Made by a program: the position numbers and the translations under genes. From NCBI GenBank assembly GCA_014191975.1, contig BJHG01000012.1:1-40463 (forward strand): DNA of 40,463 nucleotides, read 5' to 3'. This document shows positions 11,672 through 22,098 of the stretch, piece after piece. The stretch comes from Methylococcaceae bacterium. Lineage in GTDB: Bacteria > Pseudomonadota > Gammaproteobacteria > Methylococcales > Methylomonadaceae. The notes beneath the pieces are model-generated. The model did no database searches, had not been told where the DNA came from, and saw only the letters and a program-made list of their open reading frames with translations. Positions within the stretch are counted from its first letter, which is position 1. Each line of letters begins with the position of its first letter.

Positions 11672-12955
11672 ATGGTTATATTGTGGACGGATGCGCTGAT
11701 TTTTAGCTTGCTACTTTTTGTAGCAGCAATTATTTATTTTATACGAGGTAAAGAACATTTAAAACGCCCATTGACGATAATTAAACAAAGTTTAATGGGA
11801 ATGTCTTCGCTGATAATTTTGCTATTTTTTATGACAATTGGCATTTTAGATTCGATTCATTTCAAACCCGCATCAAAAGATAACGAAATAATCAGCGTGT
11901 TGGATTATTGTGCTACACCGTTGCGTGAGCATGGTGAAAAAACCTATTCTGAACCTTTTGCAACCAAGCTTTACAATAAAGAAATGATTGTTGAGTCGAA
12001 TGAAAATACCCGCTGGGATTATCCACGGTTGAAATTTGGTGGAAAACATTTAGAAAACGATGCTCAAAAATTGAAGGATATTTTTCAAAAAACAACGATT
12101 GGCTTTGGTATTGGTACGGGAATTTTCACGTTATTGATTTTCGCTTTTAACCTTAAATCGAAATCCACTTTTTTTGTGTTGATTACCTTAAGTTCTACGT
12201 TGATTTATTTGTCGAATTTCTATCACGTTTTCGGTACGGACAAAGTCGGTGAAGACGTGTTTTATCAAACAATCAAAAGCATTCGAACAGGCTTGGTTCT
12301 CGGTACGTTGACAACGTTAATTTTATTGCCATTATCATTAGTTTTGGGAATTTTATCGGGGTTTTTTCGTGGCTGGCTTGATGACGCGATTCAATTTTTA
12401 TACACAACATTAAATTCCATTCCGAGTGTATTGTTAATTGGCGCATCGGTTTTGATGGTACAAGTTTATATGTCGAATCACGAAAACGATTTCACGAGTT
12501 TAATCGTTCGTGCTGATATGCGATTGCTGTTTTTGTGTTTGATTTTAGGTATGACGAGCTGGACGGGATTGTGTCGATTGTTACGTGCCGAAACCTTGAA
12601 ATTACGCGAAATGGAATACGTTCAAGCCGCGTATTCATTGGGCGTAAAACAACACACGATTTTGATTCGACATATTTTTCCAAACCTTATGCACATTGTA
12701 TTGATTTCAATTGTGTTGGATTTTAGTTCATTAGTGTTAGCTGAGGCGGCGCTGTCTTATATCAATATTGGGGTTGACCCCAGCACTTATAGCTGGGGCA
12801 ATATGATTAACGGCGCACGCTTAGAAATGGCGCGTGAGCCGATTGTTTGGTGGTCATTGACAGCCGCATTTTTGTTGATGTTTGCATTGGTTTTGGCAGC
12901 AAACTTATTTGCTGAAACGGTGCAAACTGCTTTTGATCCGAGGCGAAATCAGTAA
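11672..12955 (+). CDS. ABC transporter permease, OppC/DppC type, with long N-terminal extension
   Basis: The C-terminal ~230 residues are a binding-protein-dependent permease of the peptide/nickel class. The entry motif is HVFGTDKVGEDVFYQTIKSIRTGLVLG and the EAA loop is YVQAAYSLGVKQHTILIRHIFPN. The first ~190 residues hold about four extra hydrophobic segments and a soluble loop (about 60-145), which ordinary OppC lacks. No second permease, ATPase or binding-protein gene adjoins it, so its partners must be elsewhere and the substrate is unknown. Its last codons overlap the 3' end of the convergent TonB receptor gene by seven bases. Confidence 0.82.
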   Translation: MVILWTDALIFSLLLFVAAIIYFIRGKEHLKRPLTIIKQSLMGMSSLIILLFFMTIGILDSIHFKPASKDNEIISVLDYCATPLREHGEKTYSEPFATKLYNKEMIVESNENTRWDYPRLKFGGKHLENDAQKLKDIFQKTTIGFGIGTGIFTLLIFAFNLKSKSTFFVLITLSSTLIYLSNFYHVFGTDKVGEDVFYQTIKSIRTGLVLGTLTTLILLPLSLVLGILSGFFRGWLDDAIQFLYTTLNSIPSVLLIGASVLMVQVYMSNHENDFTSLIVRADMRLLFLCLILGMTSWTGLCRLLRAETLKLREMEYVQAAYSLGVKQHTILIRHIFPNLMHIVLISIVLDFSSLVLAEAALSYINIGVDPSTYSWGNMINGARLEMAREPIVWWSLTAAFLLMFALVLAANLFAETVQTAFDPRRNQ

Positions 12956-15015
12956 CTCAGGCGAATCCCGACTTCTGCGCTACGTCCTGCTTCGGGCGCA
13001 AAATTTCGTAAATACGACACGGAACTGCGGATATTTTCATCGAGTAAATTTTTACCTTTCGCAAACAGCAAAATTTCAGATTTTGCAAAACTCGCTATTT
13101 TGTATTGTGTTCCGACATTCAACAATAAATACGCAGGCGTGGTGGTTTCGTTTTCGCCCGAATTTGTTTGTTCTTCACCGCGCGTTAAACGCACATTGCC
13201 TGAAAACGCATTTTTTTCATAACTCAACTGCGTGCCGTAACGCAACGGCGGCATTCTCGGCACGTTGCCACCTTTATCAAACGTGCCGCGCGTGTAATCG
13301 CTAAACAAGGTTAAATCCACCGCGCCAAATTTATTATCGAGCAACGGGAAAACCGTTTTGGCTTCAAACCCTTTGAAAATCGCGGCTTGTTGCTCGCTGT
13401 GTAAAATCGGAAAACATTCGGCACAATCTGTGTTATTTGCTACAAATTCGCCATCTTCCGCGTTAAATAATTGCGCTGAATCGCGTTGCTGATAAATGTA
13501 ATCGCTCACCCAATTATGAAAAAAGTTGAAATCGGCTTGCACCCAAGACGCATCAAATTGATAACCTAAATCCAAATTATTCGACAATTCTTTTTTCAAA
13601 TTTGCGTTACCAACTTCATAACTGCGTGTTGCGTGATGAAAACCGTCCGAAAATAATTCTTGAATTTGCGGCGCACGTTGCGAATGCGTGAACGCTAAAC
13701 TCAATTTATTTTGTGAATTCATTTGCCACATCGCCGAAGTCGAACCGCTCAACGGAATGTACGAAACATCGTTTCGACCTTCGGGCGTGATTTGCGTCGA
13801 TTCAGCCCGCCCGCCTAATTCATAAGTCACCGCGCCGACTTTGAGCGATTCGACGTTAAAAATTCCATAAGTCGCAATGTCGGATTTTGGAACGATTTTG
13901 CCTTCTTCGCCCAAACCTTGAAAAATGCTGTTTGTCGATTGAAAACCTAAAATACCTTTGTTATTTTTAATTAGTGGCGCGTGTTCGAGTTCAAAACGGC
14001 TTTCGTAAGTTTCATTTAAAAATACCGTTCCCGCGACATTGCCATCAAATTCGGTGTGCGCGTAATCGGTGTAACCAAATTTGAGTTTGGCTTTTTCGAT
14101 AAACGCGAATGGATTATTGAGCTGACTTTTAAAATCGTATTTGGTTTGTTTCATTTCAACATGAACAGGCGTTTCGCCGTGTCCATCGGGTGGAATGCCG
14201 TAATTTCTTTCGGTTTGATTGATTGCCGCACCGATTAAACCCACGTCTCCAATCATTGAAAAACCCGCGCTTCCGCCTCGCGCTCGACTTTGCGTATTGT
14301 CCGTGAAGCCATAAGTATTTTGTAATTCACCTGCGGGAACAGCGTTAAAACTGGGGTCATGTTGACGCGCTCGCGCTTCGTCAATTGCTGCGCCGCCAAT
14401 GCTGGTATTTCCTGCGTCACGATAAAAACCGTCAACGTGATACGCGAAATTATTTTTGCCGCCTTCAACTTTCAACGCGCTTGACGATTCGTCGGTGGCG
14501 GAATCGTAACGTTGTTCGCCCGCGCCGCCAATGACTTTGTCGAACATTTTTTCAGGCATGCGATTGTCAATCACGTTCACAATGCCGCCCATCGCGCCAC
14601 TTCCATAAAGCAACGTTGAAGGCCCGCGTAAAATTTCAACTCGTTCGGCAATAATCGGATCAACGCCTGTGGCGTGGTCTGCGCTTAATGAGGACGCATC
14701 ATTATTGCCCAAACTGTTTTGTAATACTTTGACGCGCGAACCCGATTGCCCACGAATGACGGGAATTCCCACGCCTGAACCAAACGATTGATTGGTTACG
14801 CCGAGTTCATTTTGCAAGGTTTCGCCCAGTGTTGAACCTACTTTTGAACGCAATTCTGCACCGTCTAAAATCGTAATCGGATGCGCCGAATCATCAACCG
14901 ATTCCACAAACGGTGCGCTGACAATCATGTCATCGAGTTTTTGCACAAACTCATCGGCGTAAATTGGCACGGTAAAAATAGGCAATAACAACAACGGTAT
15001 TTTTTTCAATTTCAT
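12949..15015 (-). CDS. ZnuD-like TonB-dependent outer-membrane receptor
   Basis: A TonB-dependent receptor with a signal peptide (MKLKKIPLLLLPIFTVPIYA), a plug domain (about 25-150, with IPVIRGQSGSRVKVLQN and VEILRGPSTLLYGSGAMGGIVNVID) and a 22-strand barrel ending in aromatic residues. The plug resembles the zinc receptor ZnuD of Neisseria (SLSADHATGVDP segment), and histidine-rich loops such as GFHHATRS fit metal uptake. The ATG at 15015 is chosen because GGAG lies just upstream; a start four codons earlier would put that site inside the gene. It is the last gene of the Zur operon, which supports zinc as the ligand. Confidence 0.88.
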   Translation of the reverse strand: MKLKKIPLLLLPIFTVPIYADEFVQKLDDMIVSAPFVESVDDSAHPITILDGAELRSKVGSTLGETLQNELGVTNQSFGSGVGIPVIRGQSGSRVKVLQNSLGNNDASSLSADHATGVDPIIAERVEILRGPSTLLYGSGAMGGIVNVIDNRMPEKMFDKVIGGAGEQRYDSATDESSSALKVEGGKNNFAYHVDGFYRDAGNTSIGGAAIDEARARQHDPSFNAVPAGELQNTYGFTDNTQSRARGGSAGFSMIGDVGLIGAAINQTERNYGIPPDGHGETPVHVEMKQTKYDFKSQLNNPFAFIEKAKLKFGYTDYAHTEFDGNVAGTVFLNETYESRFELEHAPLIKNNKGILGFQSTNSIFQGLGEEGKIVPKSDIATYGIFNVESLKVGAVTYELGGRAESTQITPEGRNDVSYIPLSGSTSAMWQMNSQNKLSLAFTHSQRAPQIQELFSDGFHHATRSYEVGNANLKKELSNNLDLGYQFDASWVQADFNFFHNWVSDYIYQQRDSAQLFNAEDGEFVANNTDCAECFPILHSEQQAAIFKGFEAKTVFPLLDNKFGAVDLTLFSDYTRGTFDKGGNVPRMPPLRYGTQLSYEKNAFSGNVRLTRGEEQTNSGENETTTPAYLLLNVGTQYKIASFAKSEILLFAKGKNLLDENIRSSVSYLRNFAPEAGRSAEVGIRLSY

Positions 15016-15030
15016 CACATTCTCCATTTT

Positions 15031-16020
15031 TTAAATTTGTTTCACTTTTTGTAATTTAGCCATCAAATCTTCAGCAAGATTAACCAATTCACCATCGGTA
15101 ATAAAAACTAAGCGTCCAACTTCATCATTGAATTCTCGCATTTCTAAAAAAGTCGGCGGATGCAAATAACCATTTCCGCCTTGCACAATCATTGGTTTTT
15201 TATGTTCTTGGGTATAAATCACGCCTTTCACGCGCACTAATTCATGGTGATATGTGGTCAGCAAATCAATTAAAACCACTTGTAACAAATTCCATTCAAT
15301 TCGATTTTCAAAACGCAAACAAATAATTTTAAAACGTTTCGCCGTTAAATCGTCTTCGACTTGATTGCGTTTCAATGTTTTTTTCTCAGCGGTTTGTTGT
15401 GTAAAAAGTAAGCTCGGCGAAATCGCGCCAAATGGCGCGTTGATTTTGGTGGCGTTAGGCGCGAATTTCTCAATCGTTGTAAAACATTTTTGAATTTGCC
15501 GCTCCGTGACTAAATCGGCGTGCGTTAAAACAACGGTATCTGCCCACGCGAGTTGCGCTTGCATTTGTGGAAAGCGCGACACGTTTTCATCAGAAATTGC
15601 AGAAAATGTGCTGATAACATTTTGCAAACGGTAACGCGCAGATAACCATTTTTGCGTTAATAAAATATCTAACACAGGTTCTGGATTCGCAACGCCGCTA
15701 GTTTCAATAATGACGTAATCAAACGGTTTTTCAGTTTGACTTTCCCACGCCATGCGTAAATTTTTAAGCATTGGCATTAACGCATCGCGTGTTTGACAAC
15801 ACAAACAACCACCAACCAATGTTGCTTTGGGTGCTTGATGTTTTTGCAACAAATCTTGGTCAATCGGAATCGTGCCGAATTCGTTAATAATCACCGCTGA
15901 TTTTGGAAAATGATGCAACAGCGAATTTAACAACGTGGTTTTGCCGCTTCCTAAAAAGCCGCTAATCACGATGACTGGAATTTGCTCAATAATTTTAATT
16001 TTCCGACTGACTGGATTCAT
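15031..16020 (-). CDS. COG0523 (CobW/CBWD) GTPase, copy 1
   Basis: A G3E-family P-loop GTPase, 329 aa from the ATG at 16020; a GTG four codons earlier is possible. Walker A is SGFLGSGKTTLL near residues 20-31, the family metal-binding CxCC motif is GGCLCC, Walker B is YVIIETSGVANP, and the base-recognition motif is degenerate (LTHADL instead of NKxD). A CobW_C domain follows (KGVIYTQEHK). COG0523 proteins are metallochaperones or insertases, many of them for zinc. It overlaps the fhcA 3' end by 26 bases and precedes znuD, so it is cotranscribed. It is the most divergent of the three copies here. Confidence 0.9.
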   Translation of the reverse strand: MNPVSRKIKIIEQIPVIVISGFLGSGKTTLLNSLLHHFPKSAVIINEFGTIPIDQDLLQKHQAPKATLVGGCLCCQTRDALMPMLKNLRMAWESQTEKPFDYVIIETSGVANPEPVLDILLTQKWLSARYRLQNVISTFSAISDENVSRFPQMQAQLAWADTVVLTHADLVTERQIQKCFTTIEKFAPNATKINAPFGAISPSLLFTQQTAEKKTLKRNQVEDDLTAKRFKIICLRFENRIEWNLLQVVLIDLLTTYHHELVRVKGVIYTQEHKKPMIVQGGNGYLHPPTFLEMREFNDEVGRLVFITDGELVNLAEDLMAKLQKVKQI

Positions 16021-16726
16021 AAGGTTTGCCACATTGGTGGGAAAAAAACCGCTCGGTGTCGGTTTGATTAAAACTCACATCTTCCACCTGAAAATTATGC
16101 AATTTTAAATTATAAAATTGGTCGTAATAATCTTGAACGTCGCGTTTAATCTGTCGCTCAAAATACGGTTGAATTGTTTGCGTTGTGCCATTTTTTCGCA
16201 TTTTCACATCGCCATTTTTTACGACTAATTCGCCATTTTTAAAGACTAAATCTGCACGATTAAACATCGCTTCTTTGTCCGTTTGCGGATGATAAACCGC
16301 AATATCCGCAATTGCGCCTGGCTTTGTGTGTCCACGGTCTTTCAAACCCAGCATTTGTGCGGCGGCGGTGCGCGTCATAATGGCGATTTCATAAAGCGAA
16401 AATTCTTTTTTCAAATCCTTTAACAAACTCATTTCAACGGCTTCGGGATGCAATTTCGCGATACATTCCAAACGAAATTCAACATCCATCAGCAACCGAA
16501 TCAAATGCGGGTAACTGGTAAAAGGTGCGCCATTTGGATGATCGGTCGTGAAAAATAATCGCCACGGATCGTCAGCTAATAAGAAAATTTCTAAGCCAAT
16601 TAACCATTGCAAACTGTTCACAAAACTTTTTGCTTGATAACGATACGGCACAACGCCGCCGCTCCCTTCGCATTCGCCATCCAAAACCACCCATTTTTTA
16701 GGATTGGCATCGTGACGACGACTAAA
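15995..16726 (-). pseudogene. fhcA: FhcA/FwdA homologue, C-terminal part behind an in-frame TAA
   Basis: This is the remaining part of the fhcA gene, in the same reading frame as the upstream part and separated from it only by TAA at 16727-16729. It continues the family sequence without a gap: FSRRHDANPKKWVVLDGECEG, then FVNSLQWLIGLEIFLL, then TTDHPNGAPFTSYPHLIRLL. It holds the catalytic and metal-binding aspartate (TTDHPNG, about residue 377 of the joined protein) and the amidohydrolase C-terminal barrel strand GAIADIAVY. The only near start is GTG at 16690, without a convincing ribosome site, so independent translation is unlikely. Confidence 0.85.
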
Positions 16727-17671
16727 TTAAGCAATCACATCGCCGGAAATTGTCACGGTTTGACCAAATAAAACCTGTCCCACATCCATCGTGATGTTGG
16801 GATGTTTGTTAAAACCATCAATCAATTTTGCGGCGGCGGATGAAAAGCCGCGCGAGCCTTCATTGCCATAACCATAAAATTGAATATGTGCTAAGTGCAT
16901 CGGCAAACCTTGAGCCGCTTCCATTGTCGCAATTGCCGTGTCTACGTTGTTTGGAATGCCTAAATTATTGCAATGCACATGAACAGGATGCGGGAGTTGA
17001 ATGTCACACGCAGCGCGTTGCAACGTCTGCAAAATGTGCCGAGAACTTACGCCATAATCAGGCACAATATCGTCTAAATCAAAATGGCGAATGTTATTTT
17101 TAAACGGATTCGCGCCACCTGCGTTAATGACTTTCAAACCTAAACATTTTGTGGCGTGCAACGTCCACGCAACGTAATCATTGATTTGGTTTTGACTGGC
17201 TTTGGCGCGTAATAATCGCAACAAAAAATCATCATTGCCTAAAATCACTAAACCCGCCGTATCAATAATTGGAATATCTGCCATTTGCAAATGTGCGTCT
17301 AACGCATTCGCGGGAAAAATCGCAGGTTCAACCACGGTGGTGTAACCCATTTGTGCGTAACGATAACCAATTTCTGTTGTTGACCAACGAGCGGTACTAA
17401 ATGGATGATTTAACTTTCGTGCCATAAAATTACGGTGTTGTTCAGGCAATAACAAACGGGCTGTATTTACATTTCCGCCTGCAATGTGACTGTGAATATC
17501 CACCGCACCAGCCATGACGATTTTGCCTGAAATATCGTAATCGACATCAGGTATTTGCGAATTTTCAGGCGTTGAAATAATGAAACCGTCTGCAAACCAA
17601 ATATCGCCAATTTCACCATTTAGATTTTGCGCGGGGTCAAAAACTCGTCCGCCTTTTAAGCGCGTTAACAT
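16727..17671 (-). pseudogene. fhcA: Formylmethanofuran dehydrogenase/hydrolase subunit A homologue, N-terminal part
   Basis: FhcA is the hydrolase subunit that releases formate from formyl-methanofuran in the tetrahydromethanopterin C1 pathway of methylotrophs; FwdA is its archaeal counterpart. This 314-residue part has the amidohydrolase metal ligands His60/His62 (DIHSHIAGG), the lysine that becomes carboxylated (Lys180, LGLKVINAGG), His231/His233 (PHPVHVHCNN) and His262 (MHLAHIQF). It ends at TAA where relatives continue, usually with Gln, so CAA to TAA is the simplest lesion. The joined gene has 558 codons, normal length. The start overlaps the end of COG0523 copy 2. No fhcB, fhcC or fhcD gene is nearby. 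Confidence 0.88.
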
Positions 17672-18657
17672 GCGCTAACTCGGCAACTGTCCAAGGTTTC
17701 GTGTATGTATTGTTTGGGTAAATCGCGCCCAATAAACACCAACACCGATTGCGGAATTTCATTTCCCCAAACTACGCCCATCGTTTCATCCAAAATCATA
17801 TGAACACCTTGATAAATCACTTTGCGGTCACAACCTGAAATGTGCAAAATTCCTTTGTAACGCAATAAATCATTACCGTAAATTTTAAGCATCACATCCA
17901 TAAACGCCATGATTTTTGCAGCATCAAACGCCACATTACTGCGATAAACAAACGAGGTAATTCCCGCGTCATGTTCGTGACTCACATCGTCGAGAAAATC
18001 AGGTTCAATCTCTAAAATCGCACTCAAATTAAAGCCGCGAATATCCAAAATTTCAGCAATATCTGTTTCACCAAAATGAACGTGTTTAATCGGCGCACGG
18101 GCATTAATGCCGCGTAATCGCGCTTCTATTTTTGCAATTTCTTCAGCAGTGATTAAATCCGTTTTTGACAATAATAAGCGGTCTGCAAAACCGACTTGTT
18201 CCTCGGCTTCATGACAATGTTCGAGTTGTGTTAAAGCGTGTTTTGCATCGACAACGGTGATAATTGCATCGAGTAAATAATTGTCTGCAATATCTTGTTC
18301 AACAAAAAACGTTTGAGCGACAGGCGCGGGGTCAGCAAGCCCTGTCGTTTCAATAATGACGCGGTCAAAATGCAAGTCACCCTTTTCACGTTTTTGAGCG
18401 AGTTCGCCTAAAATTCGTACCAAGTCGCCACGCACCGTGCAGCAAATACAGCCATTATTCATTTCAACAATTTGCTCTTCGCCTTGAATTAACAAATCAT
18501 TGTCAATCCCTGTTTCGCCAAATTCATTTTCAATAACCGCAATGCGTTGTCCGTGTTCTTCGGACAAAATACGGTTTAATAAAGTCGTTTTTCCCGCACC
18601 CAAAAAACCCGTCAAAATAGTGACTGGAATTCGTGAAAAATGGTTATTTTCCAACAT
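17665..18657 (-). CDS. COG0523 (CobW/CBWD, YjiA-like) GTPase, copy 2
   Basis: A 330-aa G3E GTPase close to the YjiA type. Visible are Walker A LTGFLGAGKTTLL near residues 15-27, a metal site GCICC, Walker B VIIETTGLADPAP, an SKTD base-recognition motif (LLLSKTDL), a His/Asp segment HEHDAG before the C-terminal CobW_C domain, and YKGILHISG. It probably moves zinc to client apoproteins at low supply. Its stop overlaps the fhcA start (ATGTTAA), so the two are translationally coupled, which makes the FhcA homologue a candidate client. DUF1826 lies 20 bases upstream. Confidence 0.93.
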   Translation of the reverse strand: MLENNHFSRIPVTILTGFLGAGKTTLLNRILSEEHGQRIAVIENEFGETGIDNDLLIQGEEQIVEMNNGCICCTVRGDLVRILGELAQKREKGDLHFDRVIIETTGLADPAPVAQTFFVEQDIADNYLLDAIITVVDAKHALTQLEHCHEAEEQVGFADRLLLSKTDLITAEEIAKIEARLRGINARAPIKHVHFGETDIAEILDIRGFNLSAILEIEPDFLDDVSHEHDAGITSFVYRSNVAFDAAKIMAFMDVMLKIYGNDLLRYKGILHISGCDRKVIYQGVHMILDETMGVVWGNEIPQSVLVFIGRDLPKQYIHETLDSCRVSAC

Positions 18658-18677: not shown

Positions 18678-19355
18678 TTAAGCAAAATCCAGCGTGAGCA
18701 ATAATCGACGCGGTGATTTTTCTGATAATTTGGGCGAACGATGCACCGCGCCGTTTTGTTCATTGCCTTCCCATTTCGAACCCTTCAACAAGCCAATTCC
18801 GTAGGCGGGCATGATGCTAATGGCATCCATATCGCCTTTAATTAAACCCGAAACAACATCACTCAAACCGCCCGAACCGCTGCCTAATTTGGCGCGATTG
18901 ACAAACGCATCTTGTAAAAATTCCGTGCCAATTCCGCCATAAGTACACACCAATCGACACGGCACATGGTCAACATGAAATTTTGGACACATCGCTTTAT
19001 CAAGCATTCCAAAACGCAAACCGACATTTTCAAGTTCAAATAAATGGCTGAAAATATCAATCAAATGAACAATATCCGCGCAAAATTCGGCATAACCTTC
19101 AACCAAATGAAATCGTGACGGCAATAATGTTTGAGCGTTAAACGCTTTTACATTGATATTTTCAATCGCGTTCACCGTGCGAGGCTCGGATAATAAATGC
19201 GTAACGAACGTTTCAAGTTCATCAGAAACAGCGCGTTTCACCACGCAAATGTTCACGTCAGGTTTATAAATTTCAGTTAAATCTAATAAATTGTCAGAAA
19301 AATAAGTGTGTGAATGAGTGGATTCAAATTTAACAATTAGCGGTAATGCGCTCAT
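18678..19355 (-). CDS. DUF1826 protein
   Basis: A 225-aa DUF1826 protein. Family hallmarks are the C-terminal blocks MCPKFHVDHVPCRLVCTYGG (about residues 122-141), GTEFL, and LLKGSKWEGNEQNGAVHRSP near 189-208. The function is unknown. The family is repeatedly found beside COG0523 genes in predicted Zur regulons, and the conserved Cys/His cluster FHVDHVPC suggests metal binding. Here it sits between the ZIP transporter (14-base gap) and COG0523 copy 2 (20-base gap). It is intact, unlike its two damaged operon neighbours. Confidence 0.88.
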   Translation of the reverse strand: MSALPLIVKFESTHSHTYFSDNLLDLTEIYKPDVNICVVKRAVSDELETFVTHLLSEPRTVNAIENINVKAFNAQTLLPSRFHLVEGYAEFCADIVHLIDIFSHLFELENVGLRFGMLDKAMCPKFHVDHVPCRLVCTYGGIGTEFLQDAFVNRAKLGSGSGGLSDVVSGLIKGDMDAISIMPAYGIGLLKGSKWEGNEQNGAVHRSPKLSEKSPRRLLLTLDFA

Positions 19356-19369
19356 AAATTTTTAAGTGC

Positions 19370-19936
19370 CTAAGGAAGGAGAAATTGTTCAAAAATAATA
19401 ATGGATTGCATAAACGCAATGCCCGAAGCGAGAATGGCGGTTTGTCCAAATAAATTGTGAAGGGTGGAATGTTCATGTAACGCGGGAATCATGTCTGTCG
19501 CGGCAATGTAAATAAAGCCACCCGCTGCAATCGGTAATAAAAATACCAGTGACGATTCCGCGATTTGACTGAGAAATAGCGTAAATATCGCGCCAACCAC
19601 CACTGTTAATGAACAGTAAAAATTATATAAAACCGCTTTTTTCGGCGAAAAACCGCCATAAATTAACGCGCCTACGTCGCCAATTTCTTGCGGAATTTCA
19701 TGCGCGATAATCGCAAAAGCCGTTGTGACACCCAGAATCGGGTCGGTTAAAAAACTGCCCGCAATCAAAACGCCATCAACAAAATTATGAATGGCATCGC
19801 CCACTAAATTCATTTTTGCCATCGGCTGAATGGCGTTAGCTTCGGAATCGGTAAAATCCACGCGGTGATCGTGTCGCCAGCGCACAATTTTTTCTAACAC
19901 AAAAAAATGAAAACGCCGATTAACGTTGTTAAACAA
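19370..19936 (-). pseudogene. ZIP-family zinc transporter, C-terminal part after a frameshift
   Basis: This frame carries the second half of a ZIP permease. The metal-translocation helices are present: GDAIHNFVDGVLIAGS (the HNxxDG motif) and IAHEIPQEIGD (the HExPxE motif), followed by three more membrane helices. Homology begins at FFVLEKIVRW, about ten codons after this frame's first possible start; the codons before that are out-of-frame translation of the upstream part. Only a one-base change in the T7 run (19901-19907 on the plus strand) separates the two parts. Confidence 0.88.
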
Positions 19937-20154
19937 ACGGTTGAAACGGAACCTTGTCGCGCCACCGCATCGGGAATCAAATGAATAAACGCATCGCCTA
20001 AAAGTACGCCGACGGCTAATGCGACTAAATATGGCACAATTTGTTGCAGTTTTTCGGGCTTAATCCACAACACAAACAAGCCACTTAACGAACTAAAACT
20101 CACTAAAAGACTCGCGCCAATAACCGCCGCTGGAATATCGGAAGGTAAATTCAT
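19894..20154 (-). pseudogene. ZIP-family zinc transporter, N-terminal part before the frameshift
   Basis: The first 84 or so residues of a ZIP-family metal permease: helix 1 (about 8-30), a short cytoplasmic loop, helix 2 with the conserved GVLLGDAFIHLIPDA, and helix 3 (TTLIGVFIF). It then stops with LC and TAG, whereas relatives continue with FVLEK. Adding one T to the seven-T run would join it in frame to the next segment and give a normal ZIP of about 260 aa. Its ATG overlaps the stop of the 54-aa small gene (ATGA), so initiation is probably coupled. Importing zinc fits the Zur operon. Confidence 0.85.
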
Positions 20155-20315
20155 TTTGAAAATTCAAAGGTTACGTTATGAACAAGAGCTTTTTTGTTTG
20201 TCGAACCATAAACAAAATTCGCAATTGAATCGGGTAACCAATTCAAAAAAACGTAACTCAGCATGACGCTAAACACGACCAAAAATACACGGTTTAATAA
20301 TTTTGCTGAAGTCAT
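20151..20315 (-). CDS. Small single-span membrane protein in the zinc operon (54 aa)
   Basis: An unrecognised 54-aa protein. The ATG (20315-20313) overlaps the TGA of COG0523 copy 3 and its own TGA (20153-20151) overlaps the ATG of the ZIP gene, both as ATGA. That double coupling argues that it is really translated. The peptide begins MTSAKLLNRVFLVVFSVML; residues about 9-27 form one hydrophobic helix, with a polar C-terminal tail (about 28-54) that contains a single His and no Cys. The topology suggests a tail facing one side of the inner membrane. A role as a partner of the ZIP transporter is inferred from position only. Confidence 0.65.
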   Translation of the reverse strand: MTSAKLLNRVFLVVFSVMLSYVFLNWLPDSIANFVYGSTNKKALVHNVTFEFSK

Positions 20316-21472
20316 GCGATGTCACCGTTTTCAATTTCGTCCAAAAACCAAACAGGAAATTCATCTTTATAATCGCGCCACACATTTTCGCCTACGGCTA
20401 ATTCCTGATCGGTTAATAAACACGCATTTAATTCGGCAATCGCTTTCTGTTCATCCATATTTTGCCCGATGAAAACCAGTTCTTGCTTGCATTCGTCAAA
20501 CGATTTTTGCCACTGTCCCGCGCAACCGTGCTGCATTGTTCCGCCTGCTTGTGACCAGGAACCCGCCCATTCTGGACGCGACGCTAACCAAAAAAAGCCT
20601 TTTGAACGTAATAATGTGCCGTTATTCCATTCGTCACGATGCAAATAATCATAAAAACGTTCGGTGTGAAAAGGACGTTTTGCCTGAAATACGAAACTCG
20701 TAATGCCGTATTCTTCGGTTTCAGGTTTGTGCGTGCCGCGTAATTCTTGCAACCAGCCAGCGGCTTGTTCGGCTTTTTCAAAATCAAATTTTTGCGTATT
20801 TAAGATTTTTTCTAATGGCACAACGCCCATCATCATGGGGATAATTTCGGCATCACGATTTAAATTTTGTAAAATCGCGGTGAGATTTTCCAATTCGTCG
20901 CGGCTGATTAAATCAACTTTTGAAATTAAAATAACGTTGCTGAATTCAATTTGTTCAACTAATAAATCTGAAATGTTGCGCTCGTCTTCGTCGCTAATTT
21001 CGGCATGAATGTCTTTGAGCGATTGCGATTCTAAATAATCACGCATGAAATTCACGGCATCAACCACCGTTACCAACGTATCTAAACGCGCTAAATCCGA
21101 CAAACTCACGCCATTTTCATCTCGAAACGTGAACGTTTCTGCAACAGGTAACGGCTCGGCAATGCCCGTCGATTCGATTAACAAATAATCAAAACGTTGT
21201 TCTTGGGCGAGCTGGGTAATTTCAATCAATAAATCTTCGCGCAACGTGCAACAAATAAAGCCGTTGCTCATTTCGACTAATTTTTCTTCGGCGTAATTTA
21301 ATGACATTTCGTTTTTAACGAGCGCGGCATCAATGTTGATTTCGCTCATGTCGTTGACGATAACCGCGATTTTTAAACCATCACGATTGGCTAAAATTGA
21401 ATTTAATAAAGTCGTTTTGCCAGCGCCTAAAAAGCCAGAAAGAACAATGACGGGGAGTTTTTTTGTGGTCAT
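20312..21472 (-). CDS. COG0523 GTPase, ZigA-like, copy 3 (first gene of the Zur operon)
   Basis: A 386-aa G3E GTPase of the longer ZigA/YciC-like type. Motifs are LSGFLGAGKTTLL near residues 11-23, VNDMSEINIDAALV, the metal site GFICC (in place of GCICC), LIESTGIAEPLPVAETF, and ISKVDL. The extended C-terminal domain has SKGFFWLASRPEWAGSWSQAG and a late EFPVWFLDE. Proteins of this type are induced by zinc limitation and thought to supply zinc to essential enzymes. A Zur operator lies 31 bases before the start codon. The TGA overlaps the ATG of the following small gene. Confidence 0.94.
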   Translation of the reverse strand: MTTKKLPVIVLSGFLGAGKTTLLNSILANRDGLKIAVIVNDMSEINIDAALVKNEMSLNYAEEKLVEMSNGFICCTLREDLLIEITQLAQEQRFDYLLIESTGIAEPLPVAETFTFRDENGVSLSDLARLDTLVTVVDAVNFMRDYLESQSLKDIHAEISDEDERNISDLLVEQIEFSNVILISKVDLISRDELENLTAILQNLNRDAEIIPMMMGVVPLEKILNTQKFDFEKAEQAAGWLQELRGTHKPETEEYGITSFVFQAKRPFHTERFYDYLHRDEWNNGTLLRSKGFFWLASRPEWAGSWSQAGGTMQHGCAGQWQKSFDECKQELVFIGQNMDEQKAIAELNACLLTDQELAVGENVWRDYKDEFPVWFLDEIENGDIA

Positions 21473-21502
21473 GATTTTTAGGGAAAGTGAATTTTATTGA
21501 TA

Positions 21503-21517
21503 TGTTATATTATAACA
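21503..21517. promoter_or_regulatory. Zur operator of the zinc operon
   Basis: TGTTATATTATAACA is a perfect 7-1-7 palindrome, matching the core of the gammaproteobacterial Zur box (TGTTATAnTATAACA). It lies 31 bases before the first gene and 42 bases after the end of zur. Binding of zinc-loaded Zur would block the operon promoter. Confidence 0.85.
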
Positions 21518-21558
21518 CTTATGACGTGTGCGCAATTTATGCCGTGCATTTTTACAAT

Positions 21559-22083: not shown

Positions 22084-22098
22084 CGTTACAATATAACA
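22084..22098. promoter_or_regulatory. Probable second Zur operator, in front of zur
   Basis: Read on the minus strand, TGTTATATTGTAACG matches the Zur core with two mismatches in the right half; the left half TGTTATA is exact. It sits 25 bases before the zur start codon and could give autoregulation. Confidence 0.6.

Follow-up and report, generated by a model that had tools for sequence, protein, structure and literature searches.

Methane-eating bacteria oxidise formaldehyde with the help of a zinc enzyme, the formyltransferase/hydrolase complex (Fhc). Among the described systems closest to the locus analysed here, the gammaproteobacterial Zur box has been published as GAAATGTTATANTATAACATTTC and lies ahead of zur and of zinc-uptake genes (PMC2706843). 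A second paper gives a gel-shift probe for Zur from A. baumannii that includes TGTTATAATATAACA (PMC3516566). Zur-controlled COG0523 clusters have been described with COG0523 genes that occur together with DUF1826, an outer-membrane receptor, a paralogue of a zinc enzyme and a Zur box (PMC2770081). The same paper places zinc-starvation paralogues among the ribosomal proteins and in the synthesis of folate, pyrimidines and haem, among others, and presents FolE2 as a zinc-independent enzyme under Zur (Haas et al., PMC2770081). Nine enzyme families with Zur-controlled paralogues are given there in section 10, FhcA not among them, and the terms 'formylmethanofuran' and 'Fhc' are absent from its main text. 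A literature search covering open-licence papers, mostly by titles and abstract openings, found neither a link between Fhc and Zur nor a described zinc-starvation paralogue for one-carbon oxidation.

The window, which is the whole stretch of DNA analysed (40,463 nucleotides), carries a cluster that likewise combines COG0523 genes, DUF1826, an outer-membrane receptor, a zinc-enzyme paralogue and a Zur box (Table 1). The initial annotation had reported a perfect 7-1-7 palindrome with an exact gammaproteobacterial Zur core ahead of the operon, and the 15-mer was indeed located exactly there. All 14 specified core positions match the consensus, the 15-bp core is identical to that in PMC2706843, and no differing feature was found in that comparison. 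The weaker site that had been placed ahead of zur was recovered as well, with its two mismatches, when read on the minus strand. Both palindromes are well supported as predicted Zur operators, the first preceding the operon and the second preceding zur. As judged from its sequence, the operator is an ordinary, convincing Zur box, and the interest lies in the genes that it is predicted to control.

Table 1. Coordinates of the predicted operators and genes of the locus within the window.
Feature	Position	Strand	Remarks
Second predicted Zur operator	22084..22098	.	Two mismatches; zur begins about 25 bp downstream
zur, zinc-sensing repressor, 166 aa	21559..22059	-	FUR PF01475
23-bp box around the 21503 core	about 21499-21521		Heads zigA and the operon
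Predicted Zur operator core TGTTATATTATAACA	21503..21517	.	Between zur and zigA (gap of 86 bp); zigA begins 30 bp downstream
zigA, COG0523 GTPase	20312..21472	-	First gene past the operator; NF038288 591.1 bits, cut-off 600
54-aa small ORF	20151..20315	-	Overlaps zigA stop and ZIP start
ZIP metal transporter	19370..20154	-	PF02535 match split into two pieces by reading frame; frameshift in or close to T run 19901-19907
DUF1826 protein	18678..19355	-	PF08856 E 1.5e-55; model resembles Fe(II)/2-oxoglutarate oxygenases
Second CobW/COG0523 GTPase (CobW2)	17665..18657	-	PF02492 E 1.5e-58; nearest NCBIfam model PRK11537 (NF008578), 311.4 bits, cut-off 361
fhcA2, paralogue of the formyltransferase/hydrolase complex A subunit	15995..17671	-	TIGR03121 657.9 bits when read across the internal TAA, cut-off 392.75
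Third CobW-type GTPase	15031..16032	-	Start uncertain; PF02492 E 2.7e-38
znuD-like TonB-dependent receptor	12949..15027	-	Last in run; NF038289 408.7 bits, cut-off 950

Our preferred reading is that the two palindromes are Zur operators, that the operon is released when zinc runs short, and that FhcA2 then replaces the canonical subunit, FhcA1; taken as a whole, we give it a probability of about 0.6. When zinc is sufficient, Zur would repress both zur itself and the operon that follows it in the same direction. A drop in zinc would derepress the operon, upon which ZnuD and the ZIP transporter would import zinc and the COG0523 GTPases would pass it on. FhcA2 would substitute for FhcA1 in the single FhcB/FhcC/FhcD set, and with this exchange the oxidation of formaldehyde to formate would continue. 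The operators, the regulator, their conservation, the make-up of the operon, the lone-subunit status of FhcA2 and its intact metal ligands are well supported by sequence analysis. From the same material we infer that Zur actually binds, that it represses and that the genes are co-transcribed; a Zur-controlled exchange of FhcA1 for FhcA2 under zinc starvation, with FhcA2 the better subunit at low zinc, would be a further step of the same kind.

Past the box, zigA is followed by the 54-aa ORF, ZIP, DUF1826, CobW2, FhcA2, the third CobW and the ZnuD-like receptor, tightly packed and on the same strand as zur. Zur, ZigA, CobW2 and ZnuD all score below their curated NCBIfam cut-offs. For the regulator, which reaches 134.7 bits against the NF008646 cut-off of 167, this score was missed, and it is filed here as a Zur homologue only. 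Among solved structures, 4mtd ('Zinc uptake regulation protein', presumably the E. coli Zur) matches it best (E 3.2e-31), with both Cys-x-x-Cys pairs aligned. A family search with the 54-aa ORF gave none, and a similar ORF was found in G007, a genome of the same genus, only, among the loci tested. The model of the DUF1826 protein is confident (pLDDT 89.2); by Foldseek, it comes closest in the PDB to Fe(II)/2-oxoglutarate oxygenases (TM 0.4-0.5, E about 2e-6), and H127, D129 and H205 are invariant across 22 sequences. An oxygenase-like function of this type is thus possible for the DUF1826 protein of the Zur cluster. In a comparison with locus L048, the third CobW gene and znuD are 93% identical to G004, CobW2 only 77% and the C-terminal part of FhcA2 only 83%; the operon from 12949 to 18657 looks mosaic.

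At E≤1e-10, no ZnuA match was obtained in 11 of 12 Methylococcales genomes, the present one among them, and the control genomes were positive in 11 of 14 cases; ZnuABC is therefore probably lacking in these organisms. Zinc entry in them may rest on ZnuD-like receptors and ZIP transporters, and an intact second ZIP is encoded elsewhere in the present genome, on contig C9.

The operon is not intact in this genome. The fhcA2 gene contains a single in-frame TAA at 16727-16729, and ZIP is broken by its frameshift; the counterparts of both in G007 are intact. With both genes interrupted, the operator probably controls an operon that has decayed in part in this genome; an assembly error is a possible source of both the stop and the frameshift. 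FhcA2 is likewise broken in G004 and G054. In the close relatives G010 and G011, the arrangement is zur-box-zigA-znuD, with znuD directly behind zigA and the FhcA2 block missing (zigA 97-98%, znuD 92-94% identical). Together, these observations mark FhcA2 as dispensable in this genus. Compared with G007, the two pieces of FhcA2 have dN/dS values of 0.08 and 0.14, which argues for constraint until recently.

A canonical, intact fhcA (FhcA1, 766 bits) lies elsewhere in the genome, on C63, adjoining fhcB. FhcB, FhcC and FhcD each occur exactly once above cut-off in all 12 genomes compared, 10 of which carry FhcA2; FhcA2 is thus a lone spare subunit. The G007 copy has no stop and scores 657.9 bits with TIGR03121, and intact FhcA2 copies range from 628 to 664 bits. 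Residue counts leave out the broken or partial L049, L090, L091 and L092, take the related L088 and L089 as outside the 30 FhcA2 sequences, and keep the window's two pieces apart. On this basis, the metal residues H58, H60, K181, H234, H263 and D378 are kept in 30 of 30. As assigned by motif and alignment, the binuclear metal site is complete, with four histidines, an aspartate and a carboxylysine; the ligand set and a possible gatekeeper, Lys64, of the archaeal enzyme are set out in section 2.3 of a review (PMC11656701). A zinc-free FhcA2 is rejected, since all zinc ligands are retained in 30 of 30. With its ligands kept, FhcA2 is not of the FolE2 type, in which ligands are lost, and fits only the kind of paralogue that keeps them.

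Six differences are fixed between FhcA1 (28 of 28) and FhcA2 (30 of 30): K65N, D76Q, Y142L, C236N, H267Y and C339G. Three of the positions, C236, H267 and C339, are conserved in all 28 FhcA1 compared and replaced in every FhcA2, and it is our guess that this reflects the loss of an extra metal site. We advance only tentatively, as a possibility that we would not expect to hold, the more specific proposal of a zinc-sparing or metal-swapped FhcA2 that, at low zinc and under Zur control, takes over from FhcA1 in the Fhc complex. The AlphaFold model of FhcA2 is too poor for use (mean pLDDT 58.4).

A rather doubtful alternative accepts the Zur sites as real and regards FhcA2 as an extra dose of the same zinc enzyme with no special metal property. 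The retention of all metal ligands in 30 of 30 FhcA2 speaks for it; the six fixed differences, however, count against it, as does the phylogeny. In a tree of 78 rows, the 30 FhcA2 rows group at 100/99, apart from FhcA1, so that FhcA2 is a separate lineage and not a recent copy of FhcA1; recent duplication is rejected by the tree. FhcA2 joins two alphaproteobacterial MAGs and nine genomes from the phylum outside the class at 100/99, which suggests that it was acquired rather than recently duplicated. In this tree the midpoint root serves for drawing only, several rows are long, and the fork with the 11-row sister group of FhcA2 stands at 90/64.

It is also conceivable, and in our judgement unlikely, that FhcA2 acts outside C1 metabolism, as a stand-alone amidohydrolase or a zinc reserve of the starvation response. 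Unlike the FhcA of the complex in 6s6y, which we take to be that of Methylorubrum extorquens, FhcA2 is encoded in a Zur-type operon and has no FhcB, FhcC or FhcD copies of its own, and it differs in this lack of partner copies from FhcA3, which at L052 belongs to a full fhcBADC cluster. Furthermore, the position of the archaeal gatekeeper lysine, by alignment a lysine in 8rja (presumably the archaeal enzyme), is an asparagine in 30 of 30 FhcA2. The same asparagine, Asn65, is nevertheless present in 6s6y, to which the G007 FhcA2 aligns over residues 2-536 (E 5.6e-154) with shared ligand motifs, and the TIGR03121 scores of intact FhcA2 lie far above the cut-off of 392.75. FhcA3 itself is a third, distant FhcA type (L052-L056), present in 7 of 61 genomes by score. 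At L052, the one locus of five that was scanned, the cluster is complete, with an FhcB of 523 bits; no box with ≤2 mismatches was found at the five loci.

The exact 15-mer occurs as a single copy in the 2,129,701-base (2.13 Mb) genome; by a first-order Markov estimate with the composition of the window, the expected number of copies is 0.011 for the genome, 2.1e-4 for the window and 4.5e-7 for the zur-zigA gap. Perfect palindromes of the 7-1-7 form, whatever their sequence, are no rarity (5 in the window against 5.55 ± 2.4 in 100 simulations). When ≤2 mismatches are allowed, the core has no more matches in the genome (3 forward, 3 reverse) than a reversed control pattern does (4 and 3). The weight for the operator therefore rests on the specific sequence, its location and the matrix scan described below, and not on palindromy or mismatch counts. 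That the palindrome is instead a transcription terminator of zur or a chance AT-rich palindrome is very improbable: it does sit past the zur stop codon and generic palindromes of its form are no rarity, yet no terminator-like site was found at the locus, on which ground the terminator reading was rejected, the core's expectation in the gap is minute, and the box precedes zigA or znuD where the preceding gene is not zur (for example L098, L105 and L114). A sigma-70 promoter scan gave 3 sites where 2.9 are expected from shuffles, and none that stands out; a single weak site of this kind overlaps the box of zur, and none overlaps the 21503 box. In five other loci (L062-L065 and L083), a pair of boxes shifted by 5 bp against each other makes up a longer palindrome (GTTATGTTATAACATAAC), perhaps a double-dimer site.

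The genome-wide matrix scan proposed in the initial annotation was run with a matrix, R1, built from sequence alone from 29 hand-picked boxes of relatives; the window's own sites, boxes with ≥3 mismatches and some with two were left out. Because G007, of the same genus, contributed two of these boxes, R1 is not independent of close kin. With 150 of 954 first-look candidates scored, only two places in the genome reached E≤10, both in the window: the 21503 box at 20.7 bits (E 8.5e-4 genome-wide) and the 22084 box at 16.5 bits (E 0.02). The further regulon members that had been suggested, such as znuABC or alternative ribosomal proteins, did not appear in that scan, which gave no other box at this threshold and hence no wider Zur regulon among the scored candidates, and ZnuA gave no family match at E≤1e-10 in this genome. 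The other two-mismatch matches, on C17, C64 and C75, were likewise absent at E≤10 among those 150.

Among 61 genomes, a box at E≤0.05 was found in 32, the present one included, and none in 29. The loci fetched for the genomes with such a box number 29 among relatives, and in 27 of these the box precedes zur, zigA or znuD, as identified by tblastn with the window's proteins; in the two exceptions, L099 and L118, it precedes proteins with weak, below-cut-off PEP-CTERM matches. The placement of the second site ahead of zur is shared with G007, G009, G010 and G011. A box with ≤2 mismatches lies within 260 bp of the zigA start in 17 of the 24 FhcA2 loci with zigA, at 24-44 bp in 16 of these; the other seven have none within that distance, although in some of these a box precedes znuD or zur instead.

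It had also been suggested that the difference in strength between the two sites reflects tight repression of the operon and mild autoregulation of zur. The comparison does not support this. Matrix scores are not affinities, and where both boxes are present, in seven genomes, that of the operon outscores that of zur in four (20.7 against 16.5 bits here, 21.2 against 19.5 in G007, 20.8 against 19.5 in G008 and, by 0.1 bit, 17.0 against 16.9 in G009) and falls below it in three (19.1 against 19.6 in both G010 and G011, 16.1 against 22.1 in G024). Because the order reverses in these three, a stronger operon box is not a conserved design.

Of the 201 genomes sampled across the order, at least 48 carry FhcA2, the present one included; copies in pieces, such as those of G004 and G054, are uncounted. 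Identities among the matches listed fall into two groups, 66-100% for FhcA2 against ≤54% for other FhcA. A scan of genome contigs gave 32 FhcA2 loci, of which 30 belong to Methylococcales or to MAGs falling among them. The hosts include Methylobacter, Methylomonas, Crenothrix and Methylicorpusculum, and FhcA2 is present in the complete genome of the cultured Methylomonas sp. LW13 (L079). Near FhcA2 in 35 Methylococcales loci, DUF1826 occurs in 33, CobW2 in 30, ZIP in 26, ZigA in 24 and FolE2 in 14, counts that are lower bounds because several contigs are short. A box with ≤2 mismatches lies somewhere in 30 of the 35; in one of these, L090, it has two mismatches and lies beyond znuD, not heading the operon. 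In the alphaproteobacterial MAG relatives L088 and L089, no box or Zur-cluster genes were found nearby, and the FhcA2 type was not seen on plasmids, where 38 records match, all at <60% identity.

If our preferred reading is correct, zinc supply would help to control how methane is oxidised by roughly one in four of the Methylococcales sampled. Should the more tentative proposal of a metal swap in FhcA2 hold as well, a core step of methane and formaldehyde oxidation would shift its metal economy under the control of Zur.
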